Shown here: one piece after another, positions 36,202 to 52,757 of the stretch
How the letters are laid out: each line of letters opens with the position of its first letter
Position numbering within the stretch: position 1 is the stretch's first letter
Source of the DNA: Mycolicibacterium flavescens
Lineage (GTDB): Bacteria > Actinomycetota > Actinomycetes > Mycobacteriales > Mycobacteriaceae
Length of the DNA: 64,000 bases
Direction of reading: 5' to 3'
NCBI RefSeq assembly: GCF_001722335.1
Contig: NZ_MIHA01000007.1
Location: 1 to 64,000 of the forward strand
Made by a program: the position numbers and the translations under genes
Notes under the pieces: model-generated
What the model was told of the DNA's origin: nothing
Databases searched by the model: none
What the model saw: only the letters and a program-made list of their open reading frames with translations

Positions 36202-37197
36202 ATGCACGAGAATTTGACTGACCTGCACCTGCTGCGCGAGCTGGAGCCCGTCGTTGAGAAGAACCTCAACCGGCACCTGTCGATGCGCAAGGACTGGAAC
36301 CCGCACGACTACATCCCGTGGTCGGACGGCAAGAACTACTACGCCCTCGGCGGCCAGGACTGGGATCCCGAGCAGGCCCAGCTCTCGGAGGTCGCCCAGG
36401 TGGCGATGATCCAGAACCTGCTGACCGAGGACAACCTGCCGTCCTACCACCGCGAGATCGCGATGAACTTCGGCATGGACGGCGCCTGGGGCCAGTGGGT
36501 CAACCGCTGGACGGCCGAGGAGAACCGCCACGGCATCGCGCTGCGCGACTACCTCGTCGTCACCCGCGCCGTGGATCCCGTGCAGCTCGAGCAGCTGCGC
36601 GTCGAGCAGGTCACCCGCGGTTTCTCCCCCGGTCAGAACCAGCAGGGCGACCTCTTCGCCGAGAGCCTGTTCGACTCGGTGATCTACGTGACGTTCCAGG
36701 AGCTCGCCACCAGGGTGTCGCACCGCAACACCGGTAAGGCCTGCAACGAGACCATCGCCGATCAGCTGCTGGCCCGTGTCTCGGCCGACGAGAACCTGCA
36801 CATGATCTTCTACCGCGACGTCTCCGAGGCCGGCTTCGAGATCGCGCCGGACCAGGCGATGCACTCGCTGCACCGCGTGCTGCGCAACTTCAAGATGCCC
36901 GGGTACACGGTGCCGGAGTTCCGCCGCAAGGCCGTGATCATCGCCGTCGGCGGTGTCTACGACCCGCGGATCCACCTCGACGACGTGGTGATGCCGGTGC
37001 TCAAGAAGTGGCGCATCTTCGAACGTGAGGACTTCACCGGGGAGGCCGCGCGGATGCGCGACGACCTCGGCAAGCTCGTCGAAGAGCTCGAGGAGGCCTC
37101 GCAGAAGTTCGAGGAGTCCAAGCAGCGCAGGCTCGAGCGCGAGGCACGTAAGGCCGAAAAGCTCTCTGCGAAGAAGGTTTTGGCCTCCACCCCATGA
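36202..37197 (+). CDS. desA1: DesA1, acyl-ACP desaturase
   Basis: 331 residues, close throughout to mycobacterial DesA1 (Rv0824c). It places a double bond in long acyl-ACP chains during mycolic acid synthesis. Di-iron ligands lie in TEDNLPSYHREI (about 75-86), TAEENRHG (about 103-110), FQELATRVSH and SADENLHMIFY (about 194-204). It starts with two possible ribosome signals (GAGGAGG, AAGGA). Its stop overlaps the dus start (ATGA), so the two are coupled. Confidence 0.95.
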   Translation: MHENLTDLHLLRELEPVVEKNLNRHLSMRKDWNPHDYIPWSDGKNYYALGGQDWDPEQAQLSEVAQVAMIQNLLTEDNLPSYHREIAMNFGMDGAWGQWVNRWTAEENRHGIALRDYLVVTRAVDPVQLEQLRVEQVTRGFSPGQNQQGDLFAESLFDSVIYVTFQELATRVSHRNTGKACNETIADQLLARVSADENLHMIFYRDVSEAGFEIAPDQAMHSLHRVLRNFKMPGYTVPEFRRKAVIIAVGGVYDPRIHLDDVVMPVLKKWRIFEREDFTGEAARMRDDLGKLVEELEEASQKFEESKQRRLEREARKAEKLSAKKVLASTP

Positions 37198-45572: not shown

Positions 45573-47242
<1,670 letters not shown>

Positions 47243-47420
47243 CTGGCCCTCCAACAGCCATAGGGACCTCGCCTGGACAACAGTGTCGGTCGGTGACTTC
47301 CCAGATTCCTGCTCGACATACGGCCGTTACCCGGCCGATGGTTCCATAACGATAGCGCGCTACCTGCTGATTAGCTGAGCCGAACCGATCGAATACACGT
47401 CGGTGGGCCAGAATGGCCGG

Positions 47421-48212
47421 GTGCGCAAGCTGCTGATCGGTGCCTTGGCGGTCGTCGTCACCGTCGTCGTCGGGGCGGTCGGCACCGACTTCGGCGCGGC
47501 GATCTACGCCGAGTACCGCCTGGCCAGAAGCGTGCGCACGGCCGCTGACCTGCACCACGACCCGTCGGTGGCGATCCTCGGGTTCCCGTTCAGCACGCAG
47601 GTCGCCGACCGCCGCTACGACGAGATCGAGATCCGCGCCAACGGCGTCGACCACCCGGTAGTGGGCAAGGTCTCGTTGGAGGCGACGCTGCACGACATCG
47701 GCCTCGACGACGCGTCGTGGCTGATCGGGCCGGATGCCCGGTTGCCCGTCGGCAAGGCCGAGAGCCGCATCATCATCGACTCCACGCACGTCGGCCGGTT
47801 CATGGGCATCCCCGACCTGCTGGTGGAGGCCCCGACACGAGAGAGCAACGACGCCACCGGCGGCACCACCGAGTCCGGGATCTCGAGTAACGAGGGCGTG
47901 GTGTTCACCGGAACCCCCGCGGACTTCGACGAGCGGGTCAGCATCGCGGTCGACCTCGAGGTCACCGGCCCGGAGGAGACGACGCTGGTGATGACGGCCA
48001 CCGGGGTGCTGACCGGCCCCGGCACCGCCGACGAGGAGGTACCCGACGACAAGCTCGACGCGGTGCTGGCCGAGTTCTCCGGCACCATGCCCGGCCAGAA
48101 GCTGCCGTTCGGTCTGCGCCCGACCGCCCAGGGCGCCCGCGGCTCGGACATCATCATCGAAGGCATCGCCGAGGGAGTAACCGCGGCGCTCAGCGAGTTC
48201 AACCAGCCATGA
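47421..48212 (+). CDS. lmeA: LmeA-like envelope protein (DUF2993)
   Basis: 263 residues: N-terminal signal anchor (KLLIGALAVVVTVVVGAVGTDFGAAIYA), then the DUF2993 lipid-binding fold (VAILGFPFSTQVADRRYDEIEIRANGV; LPFGLRPTAQGARGSDIIIEGIAEGVTAAL). The M. smegmatis/M. tuberculosis homologue at this position (Rv0817c) is LmeA, a phosphoinositide-binding factor needed for lipomannan/lipoarabinomannan elongation. GTG 47421 is chosen; GTG 47403 is an alternative. It overlaps the thioredoxin gene by 4 nt. Confidence 0.85.
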   Translation: MRKLLIGALAVVVTVVVGAVGTDFGAAIYAEYRLARSVRTAADLHHDPSVAILGFPFSTQVADRRYDEIEIRANGVDHPVVGKVSLEATLHDIGLDDASWLIGPDARLPVGKAESRIIIDSTHVGRFMGIPDLLVEAPTRESNDATGGTTESGISSNEGVVFTGTPADFDERVSIAVDLEVTGPEETTLVMTATGVLTGPGTADEEVPDDKLDAVLAEFSGTMPGQKLPFGLRPTAQGARGSDIIIEGIAEGVTAALSEFNQP

Positions 48213-48631
48213 GCTCGTCCTGGGTGCTGGTCATCGCGGTGCTCGTCGCCGCGCTGGGGATCGCGTTCGTGGTCGGACGGTTGTTGACGCTGCGGGCCGG
48301 GCTGCTCAAATCCAGCCAGGACGCCGCCGACGTCGACACCAGCGATCTGGGGCTGTCGACGACCGGGCCGACGATCCTGCACTTCACCGCGCAGTGGTGC
48401 GGGCCGTGCGCGGGAGTCCGCCGGGTGGTCGAGCAGGTGTGCGGGGAACTGCCCGAGGTGGCGCATGTCGAGATCGACATCGACGCCAATCCGGAGGCGG
48501 CCCGGCGGCTTTCGGTGCTGTCGCTGCCCACCACGATCGTGTTCGACCGCGGCGGGCGGCCGCGGTTCCGCACCCACGGCGTGCCGAAGGCCGCTGACCT
48601 GCGGTCGGCGGTGGAAGCGCTGTTGGCTTGA
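48209..48631 (+). CDS. thiX: Membrane-anchored thioredoxin-like protein (ThiX)
   Basis: 140 residues: N-terminal TM anchor (SSWVLVIAVLVAALGIAFVVGRLL), then a thioredoxin domain with the CGPC active site in LHFTAQWCGPCAGVRRVVEQ (about 58-77) and a cis-Pro in LSLPTTIVFDRGG. Equivalent to Rv0816c. It lies just upstream of the cysteine-attenuated sulfur operon, so a link to thiol chemistry is likely. Confidence 0.9.
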   Translation: MSSSWVLVIAVLVAALGIAFVVGRLLTLRAGLLKSSQDAADVDTSDLGLSTTGPTILHFTAQWCGPCAGVRRVVEQVCGELPEVAHVEIDIDANPEAARRLSVLSLPTTIVFDRGGRPRFRTHGVPKAADLRSAVEALLA

Positions 48632-48647
48632 TCACCCCGTCGATTGG

Positions 48648-48653
48648 TAGGCT
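48648..48653 (+). promoter_or_regulatory. -10 box of the leaderless polycysteine ORF
   Basis: TAGGCT ends 7 nt before GTG 48661, the spacing expected if transcription starts at the GTG itself. A TTGATC at 48628 could be a -35 element but the 14-nt spacing is short. Confidence 0.6.
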
Positions 48654-48660
48654 GTCCGGC

Positions 48661-48753
48661 GTGTCCGCCCGCCTCGAGCCGATGCTCACCAAGCGCCGCG
48701 CAGTCGATCTGTGCCGCGTTGCGGGTTGTTGCTGTTGTTGTTGTAGCCGCTGA
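48661..48753 (+). CDS. Leaderless polycysteine short ORF, cysteine-responsive attenuator
   Basis: A 30-codon ORF, GTG to TGA, encoding VSARLEPMLTKRRAVDLCRV then AG, six Cys in a row (TGT TGC TGT TGT TGT TGT), S and R. It begins 7 nt after a TAGGCT box, so it should be leaderless. Such leaderless Cys-rich ORFs before this operon are reported in mycobacteria to act as attenuators: when Cys-tRNA is short the ribosome stalls and downstream translation rises. The Cys codons can pair with CAACAG (48831-48836) beside the DUF4395 ribosome site, giving a mechanism to mask it. Confidence 0.88.
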   Translation: MSARLEPMLTKRRAVDLCRVAGCCCCCCSR

Positions 48754-48846
48754 GTAGCCGCGCTTCCTCGCGCCGCGCTCGGAGATCGGATCGAATCAGG
48801 TCCGGCTCTCATTCAGCCCCGACCATGACGCAACAGGAGCACGCCC

Positions 48847-49311
48847 ATGCCGACCAAGCCCCGAACACCTGATCAGGTGGACGTCCGCGGTCCGCGGTTC
48901 GCCGCGTGGGTCACCACCGCGGTGATCGTCGCGACGCTGCTGATCTGGCCGCTTCACCCGGTCGCGTCGGCCGTGCTGCTCGCCGCGCAGGCCGTCGTGT
49001 TCGCCGTCGGCGCGTGGCTGGGTCCGCGCCGGCACCCGTACGGTCTGCTGTTCGCGCGGCTGATCGCACCGCGGCTCGGCCCGGTCACCGACAGAGAGCC
49101 CGCGCCGCCGCTGCGGTTCGCACAGTTCGTCGGCTTCGTCTTCGCCGGGGTCGGGGTGGCCGGGTTCGCGCTCGGCGTCCCCACGCTCGGCCTGATCGCC
49201 GCCGGGCTCGCCCTGGCGGCGGCCTTCCTCAACGCGGCCTTCGGCATCTGCCTGGGCTGTCAGATCTATCCGCTCGTCGCACGAATCAGCAGCACCCCCT
49301 CACCCGTATAG
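48847..49311 (+). CDS. DUF4395 membrane protein
   Basis: 154 residues, about four hydrophobic segments and a C-terminal CLGC motif (NAAFGICLGCQIYPL) typical of DUF4395, probably redox-active or sulfur-handling. AGGAG lies 7 nt before the ATG. First structural gene after the polycysteine ORF; followed after 37 nt by the sulfurtransferase gene. Cysteine-responsive expression and the sulfurtransferase partner suggest a role in sulfur transfer or transport, not proven. Confidence 0.82.
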   Translation: MPTKPRTPDQVDVRGPRFAAWVTTAVIVATLLIWPLHPVASAVLLAAQAVVFAVGAWLGPRRHPYGLLFARLIAPRLGPVTDREPAPPLRFAQFVGFVFAGVGVAGFALGVPTLGLIAAGLALAAAFLNAAFGICLGCQIYPLVARISSTPSPV

Positions 49312-49348
49312 AACTTCGAAACCCGAAGCAATCGAAAGGATTTCCTAA

Positions 49349-50182
49349 ATGGCACGTGCCGATGTCCTGGTCACAGCAGACTGGGCCGAGAGCAATCTCG
49401 ACGCGCCGAACACCGTTTTCGTCGAGGTCGACGAGGACACCAGCGCCTACGACGGCGGCCACATCCCGGGCGCCGTGAAGATCGACTGGAAGACCGACCT
49501 GCAGGACCCGGTCCGCCGCGACTTCGTCGACCAGGAGCAGTTCTCCAAGCTGCTGTCCGAGCGCGGAATCGCCAACGACGACACCGTGATCCTCTACGGC
49601 GGCAACAACAACTGGTTCGCGGCCTACGCGTACTGGTACTTCAAGCTCTACGGCCACGAGAACGTCAAGCTGCTCGACGGCGGCCGCAAGAAGTGGGAGC
49701 TCGACGGTCGCCCGCTGTCGGCCGAGGTGGTCAAGCGCCCGGAGACCAGCTACACCGCCAAGGCGCCCGACAACAGCATCCGCGCATTCCGCGACGAGGT
49801 GATCGAGGCCATCAACACCAAGAACCTCGTCGATGTGCGCTCGCCCGACGAGTTCTCGGGCAAGATCCTGGCGCCCGCGCATCTGCCGCAGGAGCAGAGC
49901 CAGCGACCCGGGCATATCCCCGGCGCCATCAACGTTCCGTGGAGCAAGGCGGCCAACGACGACGGCACGTTCAAGTCCGACGAGGACCTGGCCAAGCTGT
50001 ACGCCGAGGCCGGCCTGGACGGCGAGAAGGAAACGATCGCCTACTGCCGCATCGGCGAGCGCTCGTCGCACACCTGGTTCGTGCTGCAGGAACTCCTCGG
50101 GCACAAGAACGTCAAGAACTACGACGGCAGTTGGACGGAATACGGCTCCCTGGTGGGGGCCCCGATCGAGTTGGGAAGTTGA
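49349..50182 (+). CDS. cysA2: Thiosulfate sulfurtransferase (rhodanese, CysA2/SseA type)
   Basis: 277 residues with two rhodanese domains; the C-terminal active loop is CRIGERS (about 230-236), whose Cys carries the persulfide. It moves sulfur from thiosulfate to thiols. Other motifs: GHIPGAVKIDWKTDLQD (about 37) and RPGHIPGAINVPWSKA. Equivalent to Rv0815c by position. In the same operon as DUF4395 and DUF1416. Confidence 0.92.
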   Translation: MARADVLVTADWAESNLDAPNTVFVEVDEDTSAYDGGHIPGAVKIDWKTDLQDPVRRDFVDQEQFSKLLSERGIANDDTVILYGGNNNWFAAYAYWYFKLYGHENVKLLDGGRKKWELDGRPLSAEVVKRPETSYTAKAPDNSIRAFRDEVIEAINTKNLVDVRSPDEFSGKILAPAHLPQEQSQRPGHIPGAINVPWSKAANDDGTFKSDEDLAKLYAEAGLDGEKETIAYCRIGERSSHTWFVLQELLGHKNVKNYDGSWTEYGSLVGAPIELGS

Positions 50183-50183
50183 T

Positions 50184-50486
50184 ATGTGCTCTGCACCGAA
50201 ACAAGGACTGACGTTGCCCGCCGGCGTCGACCTGGAGAAGGAAACGGTGATCACCGGCCGCGTCGTCGACGGGTCCGGTCAGGCCGTCGGCGGGGCGTTC
50301 GTGCGCCTGCTCGACAGCTCTGACGAGTTCACCGCCGAGGTGGTCGCCTCGGCCACCGGCGACTTCCGGTTCTTCGCCGCCCCGGGCACCTGGACGCTGC
50401 GCGCGCTGTCGAAGCACGGCAACGGCGACGCCGTCGTCGCGCCGTCCGGTGCGGGCATCCACGAGGTCGACGTCAAGGTCGCCTGA
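50184..50486 (+). CDS. sseC2: SseC-like DUF1416 protein
   Basis: 100 residues, starting MCSAPKQG; beta-rich: TVITGRVVDGSGQAVGGAFVRLLDSSDEFTAEVVASATGDFRFFAAPGTWTLRALSK. This is the DUF1416/SseC family (Rv0814c), always next to cysA/sse sulfurtransferases, probably a sulfur-carrier or partner protein. The ATG is 1 nt after the sulfurtransferase stop, so translation is coupled. Confidence 0.9.
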   Translation: MCSAPKQGLTLPAGVDLEKETVITGRVVDGSGQAVGGAFVRLLDSSDEFTAEVVASATGDFRFFAAPGTWTLRALSKHGNGDAVVAPSGAGIHEVDVKVA

Positions 50487-50499
50487 GACCCGTTCGGTT

Positions 50500-50556
50500 C
50501 GAACGTGAGCTTGTGAGCGAGGATCCGCCGAGATCTCGCGCACAGGCTCACGTTCG
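50500..50556. terminator. Long palindrome after the sulfur operon
   Basis: A 22-bp stem with two mismatches (CGAACGTGAGCTTGTGAGCGAG against CTCGCGCACAGGCTCACGTTCG) and a 13-nt loop, 13 nt past the DUF1416 stop. Likely the terminator of the operon and an insulator before the leaderless gene at 50601. Confidence 0.75.
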
Positions 50557-50587
50557 GGGCGATCGCGTCCGGCCCGCGACGGCCGAC

Positions 50588-50593
50588 TAGACT
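50588..50593 (+). promoter_or_regulatory. -10 box of the 32-residue membrane protein gene
   Basis: TAGACT ends 7 nt before GTG 50601, again the leaderless spacing. Confidence 0.55.
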
Positions 50594-50600
50594 CGTGCCC

Positions 50601-50699
50601 GTGGTGCTGTTCTTCGAACTCCTGCTGGTGGTGGCCGTCGTGGTGATTACCTGGTTCGCCCTGTACACGCTGTACCGTCTCGTCACCGACGAGTCGTGA
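50601..50699 (+). CDS. Very small single-pass membrane protein
   Basis: 32 residues: [22 protein letters not shown], a perfect TM helix, then [10 protein letters not shown]. It begins 7 nt after a TAGACT box, so it is probably leaderless, and its TGA overlaps the GTG of the next gene, so the two are translationally coupled. It is too short for many gene finders, but its hydrophobic design, promoter and coupling argue it is real. No function can be assigned. Confidence 0.75.
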
Positions 50700-51325
50700 C
50701 CTCGGGCGACGACGCCGTCGCGGCCGCGGCCGAACGCGCGAAAACGACCGCCGCGCGCAACATTCCGGTGCTCGGGGATCTGCCGGCACCGTCTGACACC
50801 GCGAACCTGCGCGAGGGCGAGAACCTCAACGACGCGCTGCTGGCGCTGCTGCCGCTGGTCGGGGTGTGGCGCGGCGAAGGTGAGGGTCGCGGCGCCGACG
50901 GCGACTACCGGTTCGGCCAGCAGATCGTGGTGTCCCACGACGGCGGCGACTACCTGATCTGGGAGGCCCGCTCGTGGCGGCTCACCGAATCGGGCGACTA
51001 CGACCAGCACGCGCTGCGCGAATCCGGCTTCTGGCGGTTCATCAGCGATCCGGCCGACCCGTCGGAATCCCAAGCCATCGAACTGCTGCTGGCCCACTCG
51101 GCCGGATACATCGAGTTGTTCTACGGCCGCCCCCTCAACCAGTCGTCGTGGGAACTGGTCACCGATGCGCTGGCGCGCAGCAAGTCCGGCACGCTGGTCG
51201 GCGGCGCCAAACGGCTCTACGGGATTGTGGAGGGTGGAGATTTGGCCTACGTCGAGGAGCGCGTCGACCCCGACGGCGGGCTGGTCCCGCACCTGTCCGC
51301 GCGGCTGTCGAGGTATGTCGGCTGA
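50696..51325 (+). CDS. Nitrobindin/FABP-like beta-barrel protein
   Basis: 209 residues, equivalent to Rv0813c, whose fold is a fatty-acid-binding-protein-like beta-barrel related to haem-binding nitrobindin. Motifs: [16 protein letters not shown] (about 50-66), [34 protein letters not shown] and [25 protein letters not shown] role in peroxynitrite or lipid handling is possible. The start overlaps the small membrane protein gene; its stop overlaps the next start. Confidence 0.85.
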
Positions 51326-52439: not shown

Positions 52440-52757
52440 GGCCGCATCATCGCCCCACGCGGCACGTCGACGCCAGAGTTGCAACGCAACGGTTTGCTAC
52501 CGATTCGGCACGCAGACATGGAACGGCCCCCGAGCCGTGTGTTCCTGGCGGACAAAACCGGGGGCTCGGGGGCCGGGTGACTGCGGGGAATTCGCCAGCG
52601 CGCACAGGCGCGAAGAGCTCTGCGGCTCGTTCCCCTGGCGCTGCTAGCTCGCAGCCACCTCACAAGTCCATAAGTCACTCAAAATCTCGGACCACCTCCT
52701 CTCCTGTGTACGAGCGACGGTACCCGCGCCCGCAGGAGGCGACAACCAGTTTAGCGC
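52440..52757 (-). other. 318-nt intergenic stretch with possible structured RNA
   Basis: No protein gene seen. On the minus strand a TACCGT -10-like box (52722-52727) is followed by a purine-rich AGGAGAGGAGGTGG (52692-52705), a 3-codon mini-ORF ATG GAC TTG TGA (52660-52671) and a GCTGC/GCAGC hairpin. At 52525-52574 a GGCCCCCGAG/CTCGGGGGCC stem could end the transcript. A short RNA of roughly 190 nt upstream of the solute-binding gene is possible. Confidence 0.4.
52525..52574 (-). terminator. GC-rich hairpin (10-bp stem, long loop)
   Basis: GGCCCCCGAG and CTCGGGGGCC flank 30 nt that can fold further. It could terminate the class IV aminotransferase transcript or a small RNA, or be a leader element of the solute-binding gene 86 nt downstream. 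Confidence 0.5.

Follow-up and report, generated by a model that had tools for sequence, protein, structure and literature searches.

The short ORF that precedes the DUF4395-sulfurtransferase-DUF1416 operon of Mycolicibacterium flavescens is, with good probability, the cysA operon's cysteine leader, of the Ms5788A type, and works as a ribosome-operated translational attenuator. What our computations contribute in support is the ORF itself, its membership in a named family, its conservation, a conserved pairing partner for its Cys codons and a predicted easier opening of the downstream ribosome site; the transcript start, ribosome stalling, the response to cysteine and coupling within the operon we infer or take from the literature. 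In the window, by which we mean the whole stretch of 64,000 nucleotides that was analyzed, this leader ORF (uORF) occupies 48661..48753 on the forward strand, has 30 codons plus a stop, and reads from a leaderless-type GTG at 48661 to a TGA at 48753 with VSARLEPMLTKRRAVDLCRVAGCCCCCCSR as its product. The hexamer TAGGCT (48648..48653, forward strand) stands 7 nt before the GTG, and we take it to be the -10 element because it has the mycobacterial TANNNT form and because this form is conserved in related loci; a generic TTGACA/TATAAT scan of 48400-50700 found no promoter. Six consecutive Cys codons lie at the end of the ORF (48727..48744, forward strand), and their sequence and codon bias point to them as the putative sensing stretch and masking strand. 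Such a run of six TGY codons occurs a single time on both strands of the window and in 0/100 shuffles. The heptamer GCTGTTG falls inside it at 48731-48737; CAACAGGAG by itself is not rare, with 1 match in the window versus 0.37 expected. The sequence-only reading of this DNA had the length of the ORF, its distance from TAGGCT and the six terminal Cys codons right, all at these positions, and lacked a seventh Cys codon, a single TGC at 48712-48714 (Cys18, forward strand) that belongs to a VDLCR motif and is TGC in 62/62 mycobacterial ORFs counted.

The operon order given in that reading is also borne out by protein family matches downstream of the ORF. Specifically, the forward strand carries a DUF4395 gene at 48847..49311 (ATG at 48847; PF14340, E 3e-43), a CysA-type thiosulfate/3-mercaptopyruvate sulfurtransferase (rhodanese) gene at 49349..50182 (PF00581, E 3e-39) and a DUF1416 (SseC-type) gene at 50184..50486 (PF07210, E 2.2e-43), and the upstream neighbors of the operon are a thioredoxin-like gene and an LmeA gene. 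The Shine-Dalgarno sequence of DUF4395, AGGAG at 48835..48839, is recognized from the sequence and is mostly paired in the predicted fold, and the proposed partner of the Cys codons, CAACAG at 48831..48836, abuts it in a placing that is conserved in the leaders compared.

The window leader is a member of the already described Ms5788A leader family, and to this extent the finding is already known. Against NCBIfam NF042933, "Ms5788A family Cys-rich leader peptide" (cut-off 45), the leader peptide reaches 58.9 bits, and it lies directly upstream of the cysA operon, the position that this family calls for. It also exceeds the cut-off of 27 with 44.5 bits against NF042934 (cis_reg_atten, putative leader peptide), a wider domain model that spans 19 positions about an RRxVDLCR core. 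According to passages of Shell et al. 2015, a small ORF that ends in a Cys cluster is conserved upstream of cysA2/Msmeg_5788, and this uORF has robust 70S ribosome occupancy in M. smegmatis; attenuation is put forward there as speculation only (PMC4633059). Judged from the family profile and these passages, the window leader shares with the Ms5788A/cysA2 uORF its place before the cysA operon, a predicted leaderless-type start and the terminal Cys run, and differs in its distinct sequence, in which six Cys codons are followed by Ser-Arg, no difference of kind being apparent. Translation attenuation by leaderless ORFs with contiguous Cys codons at cysteine genes of M. smegmatis is stated as shown in passages of two later papers that cite Canestrari et al. 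2020 (PMC13236596, PMC9031893), and a passage of PMC9094748 cites the same work for such regulation in this species. The leaders in the relevant part of Seliverstov et al. 2005 are likewise short ORFs before sulfur operons with Cys codons near the stop, but apparently stand at other mycobacterial cys operons; conserved terminator hairpins are described there as lacking and Rho was proposed, in a prediction that these authors termed rather weak (PMC1262725). A search for papers on the VDLCR motif of the leader family or on the model names found none, a weak negative since the central paper lay outside the search. The claim that the poly-Cys ORF controls the operon fits the named family and was proposed in 2015 for the orthologous locus in the passages of that paper (PMC4633059). 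What our comparison supports is the identity of the RNA partner that the Cys codons of this published family use.

Conservation of the leader was followed in species genomes scanned with the DUF4395 protein, where the best 80 of at least 118 loci were used. In 77/80 of these best loci there is a short ORF that has three or more consecutive Cys codons and a start codon preceded at 6 or 7 nt by a TANNNT. The loci outside the 77 are L011, L043 and L058, the last with upstream DNA too short to judge. At L011 (M. persicum) an extra DUF4395 copy lies beside a thioredoxin gene, with no leader before it and, by eye, no cysA after it, and the same genome has a leader of the same type elsewhere, before another DUF4395 gene. 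The copy that lacks the leader ORF (L011:2500-3462) retains GCAACAAAGGAG ahead of its start. L043 (M. asiaticum) is likewise a DUF4395 copy beside a thioredoxin gene without a leader, and there is one leader match elsewhere in its genome. Several VDLCR uORFs per genome were not seen with a DNA pattern, which found one each in 4 genomes. In two loci (L111, L124) no DUF4395 start follows the leader and a short ORF with an early stop takes its place. For the counts below, identical rows were merged into 61 distinct leaders that we call mycobacterial, among which five metagenome bins that bear no mycobacterial name (L035, L042, L056, L057, L061) were retained by similarity, and 15 leaders of Rhodococcus, Nocardia, Tomitella and Antrihabitans that we call the Nocardiaceae group. 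L039 and L062, in which our script placed no ribosome site, were left out of the pairing and alignment counts, and the accessibility counts exclude L019 as well for the same reason. The hold-out set of 30 loci contained 4 without a usable leader and 9 already in the first set, leaving 17 distinct leaders.

The pairing that the sequence-only reading drew between the Cys codons and CAACAG stands for mycobacteria and fails as a general rule, both in the Nocardiaceae group and in distant actinobacteria. CAACA(A/G) falls within the 36 nt that precede DUF4395 in 52/61 mycobacterial leaders, as compared to 1.9 expected from shuffles, and elsewhere in the intergenic stretch in 0/61; in the hold-out leaders it lies within these 36 nt in 10/17 and occurs elsewhere in the intergenic stretch in none. 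The longest perfect helix that a leader's run can form with its own target averages 7.59 bp versus 4.47 +/- 0.14 bp with shuffled targets for the 61 leaders, and 6.65 versus 5.19 +/- 0.27 bp for the 17 hold-out leaders. Swapping partners between mycobacterial species costs little (7.30 versus 7.59 bp), and 1/5000 partner permutations reached the observed mean when kinship is ignored. In the alignment 96.0% of cells pair, as compared to 21-82% in slid versions, and a compensatory change from C-G to U-A occurs in one pair in five cells. With kinship again ignored, the covariation score was equalled in 12/500 shuffles of the alignment and the counts of changed pairs and pair types in 453/500. Thus the expectation that this pairing would covary across mycobacteria is borne out as to paired cells and compensatory changes and only weakly as to covariation itself: from these sequences, the conserved placing of CAACAG is strong and its covariation is modest. 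A matching (C/U)GACA(A/G)CC site is present in all 5/5 leaders whose run contains an Arg codon, as compared to 2/73 others, an association that may be a single event since the five form one clade. Whole-segment duplex energy beats shuffles (at most 10/200 as good) in 22/61 mycobacterial and 0/15 Nocardiaceae-group leaders, and the CAACA(A/G) motif has no clear excess in the 15 leaders of that group. Swaps of duplex energy between clades were uninformative on the pairing: mycobacterial runs do equally well with Nocardiaceae-group and other mycobacterial targets (-21.9 both), and Nocardiaceae-group runs slightly prefer their own (-20.8 versus -19.4). Note that the Cys codons after Cys18 are TGT in 260 and TGC in 144 cases in 62 mycobacterial ORFs, versus TGT 12 and TGC 112 in the DUF4395 genes. 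The preference for UGU in the run agrees with pairing to CAACA, and slower decoding is another possible reason. These comparisons suggest that the CAACAG partner is a mycobacterial solution that is not common to relatives whose leader peptides are of the same kind.

In the minimum-energy fold of 48661-48862 the Cys codons pair with the CAACAGGAGC region. The folding energy alone is only modestly better than that of shuffles, given a z of -1.91 for this segment (9/200 shuffles as good) and of -1.08 for a shorter piece (23/200). We modelled the cost of opening the ribosome site with a ribosome footprint blocking the Cys run and used a footprint in the middle of the intergenic stretch as control. 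For the window leader, blocking the run lowers the predicted cost from 5.2 to 3.3 kcal/mol. Among all 75 leaders the predicted cost is lower in 46 and higher in 14, with the control lower in 18/75. Where the motif abuts the ribosome site, as in the window, it is lower in 31/37 (control 9/37), so that the easing expected from unfolding the Cys stretch is indeed predicted for the window leader and most of its type. For mycobacterial leaders with the motif displaced or missing, the cost is lower in 7/23 and higher in 11, and for the Nocardiaceae group it is lower in 8/15 (control 5). The idea of direct masking of the DUF4395 ribosome site is in this modelling favored for leaders of the window type and not for those with the motif displaced or missing. 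The hallmark of such an attenuator, base pairing over the ribosome site that gives way when a ribosome occupies the Cys codons, is present in this leader by prediction only. With the footprint placed at the stop codon instead, the site is predicted to open equally well (32/37 versus 31/37 on the run), so discrimination would have to come from dwell time. A footprint at Cys18 has the opposite outcome in leaders with an abutting motif, raising the opening cost in 20/37 and lowering it in 3.

These results lead to the following model. Transcription would start at or next to the GTG, and a ribosome would read the ORF from the very 5' end of the mRNA. With ample Cys-tRNA it would cross the Cys run fast and then leave, upon which the freed run (CUGUUG) could pair with CAACAG and cover the Shine-Dalgarno site of DUF4395, keeping DUF4395 low and, by coupling, CysA and DUF1416 low as well. 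When Cys-tRNA is short, the ribosome would sit on the run, the helix would be blocked, and the site would be free for translation of the operon. The mechanism reported by Canestrari et al. 2020 for polycysteine leaderless short ORFs is alike: a ribosome that stalls in the Cys tract reportedly keeps the mRNA from forming structures that would hide the ribosome site downstream. The sequence-only reading had further assigned an anti-ribosome-site role to CTTCCT (48763-48768), which lies between the uORF stop and DUF4395. This part did not hold up: TTCCT or CTCCT is present in 7/61 intergenic stretches, below the 13.3 expected, and in 1/17 hold-out leaders, and in the predicted fold of the window CTTCCT sits in a hairpin loop. 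Two other kinds of element were also discarded, an Rfam family for the leader, where the best match reached only 15.5 bits with a cut-off of 81, and a tRNA-like element, with no tRNA at 47000-51000 and none in 20 distant loci.

Consensus folds of the 61 and of the 15 leaders also revealed structure inside the ORF. A closing helix P0 (48668..48725, in which 48668-48670 pairs with 48723-48725; the three pairs form in 67, 69 and 64 of 69 near sequences) encloses on the forward strand a hairpin H1 of the form GAGC-NNNN-GCUC (48676..48687), paired in 69/69 distinct near sequences, and a hairpin H2 of the form GCRCAG-UNGAY-CUGUGC (48698..48714), with 6/6 pairs in 69/69. The 3' arm of H2 includes the conserved Cys18 codon. 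Random synonymous recoding with local codon usage, done for 23 of the 69 distinct 66-mers, keeps H1 in 16% and H2 in 17% of cases. H1 never varies and hence provides no covariation evidence. At third positions paired columns vary less than unpaired ones (entropy 0.25 versus 1.07, p 0.0006), and the same is true with just the pairs of the window's own fold, a choice that avoids circularity (0.38 versus 1.28, p 0.003), with kinship ignored in both. Ala at codon 14 is encoded by GCA in 54/54 cases, a codon that makes up 10% of local Ala codons, and the third base of codon 8 is G in 69/69, of which 34 are ATG and so have no choice. The stability of the ORF fold overall is mildly above that of the recodings (mean z -1.18, 6/23 below -1.64). 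From these sequences, the in-ORF hairpins H1 and H2, intact in 69/69 distinct relatives, are possibly new. If they are functional, the leader would be more than a codon counter, and what the widely kept lone Cys codon does could then be tested. Since the modelled outcomes are opposite, with a stall on the run easing the site (31/37) and one at Cys18 tightening it (20/37; 3 looser), we tentatively raise the idea, which we ourselves hold as somewhat doubtful, that in the Mycobacteriaceae and the Nocardiaceae group an RNA-level module of H1 and H2 under P0 upstream of the run could make the leader a band-pass sensor that is on at moderate and off at severe cysteine shortage, and that peptide conservation would partly reflect RNA structure.

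Leaders of this kind extend beyond the poly-Cys set. A covariance model of the 5' part has matches at E 0.001 in 150/298 genomes of the order, and at the same E in 18/396 genomes in a phylum-wide search with stricter filters. All 80/80 matches examined from the 150 genomes encode a short LTxRRxVDLCR-like ORF, with the variant RRLAVDLCR in L134 and L136, and the next ORF at 20 model-found loci is CysA in 10, DUF4395 in 6 (both by eye) and unrecognised in 4. A protein-anchored set of 93 CysA loci (L214-L306), in which some loci repeat a gene and 36 were picked from genomes without a model match, has a VDLCR leader within reach in 64/93. In the other 29/93 the DNA examined contains no VDLCR leader. 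From these sequences, parts of the order seem to have lost the leader or to have replaced it. In the 47 distinct distant leaders without poly-Cys the Cys codons, counting Cys18, mostly number two or three; all of H2 is present in 35 and H1 in 9, and codon 14 ends in a purine in 45/47. A first distant count of H2, 59/61, was set aside in favor of this protein-anchored 35/47, being drawn from a model that contained H2. Direct masking by the Cys codons was rejected as an order-wide mechanism: 43 model-found distant leaders with CysA directly downstream average 4.67 bp versus 5.17 bp expected, and the modelled opening cost is lowered in 5/47 such model-found leaders, the same as in the control (5/47). 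With neither complementarity nor predicted easing, another mechanism is likely in these model-found distant leaders. The consensus fold of the 15 Nocardiaceae-group leaders allows GUGC...CC, at the mRNA 5' end, to pair with GGAGCAC of the downstream ribosome site, possibly a different masking partner that would include the leaderless start codon.

Several other explanations of the window leader have to be weighed. Under transcriptional attenuation, which we consider improbable, a ribosome that clears the run unstalled would allow Rho or an intrinsic terminator to stop the RNA before DUF4395. Seliverstov et al. 2005 proposed Rho in the part concerned, with no conserved terminator hairpins described (PMC1262725), and direct masking is not seen in the distant relatives whose leader is followed directly by CysA. 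However, the stretch from the uORF stop to DUF4395 contains no terminator-like site and, specifically, no intrinsic terminator in 48754-48846 as a classical transcription attenuator would have; 48400-50700 contains 3 terminator-like sites versus 1.0 +/- 0.9 expected, of which one (48705-48728) is within the ORF. This explanation also leaves the conserved CAACAG beside the ribosome site unexplained.

That the RRxVDLCR peptide itself acts, either as a stall-aiding nascent chain or as a small protein, with the Cys codons only tuning its effect, is unlikely and yet deserves more weight. The motif is found across the order and NF042934 is matched; pN/pS for the 15 core codons in mycobacteria is 0.46 in frame, as compared to 1.0 and 1.9 in the shifted frames, and is 0.44 in frame when the Nocardiaceae group is added; and 12/47 distant leaders break H2 while keeping the peptide. 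Set against this, much of the codon choice in the Mycobacteriaceae and the Nocardiaceae group goes with RNA stems, and the constancy of the motif at a distance partly reflects how these leaders were selected, since the search model or regular expression contained the motif. A chance ORF without function, with a promoter alone controlling the operon, has a negligible probability given that the -10, the peptide and the codon pattern are conserved in 77/80 of the best loci and that the named family NF042933 is matched. Finally, apart from this leader, the reverse strand of the window has matches to two Rfam small RNAs, Ms_IGR-5 at 52518-52709 (163 bits) and ASdes at 36520-36587 (78 bits).
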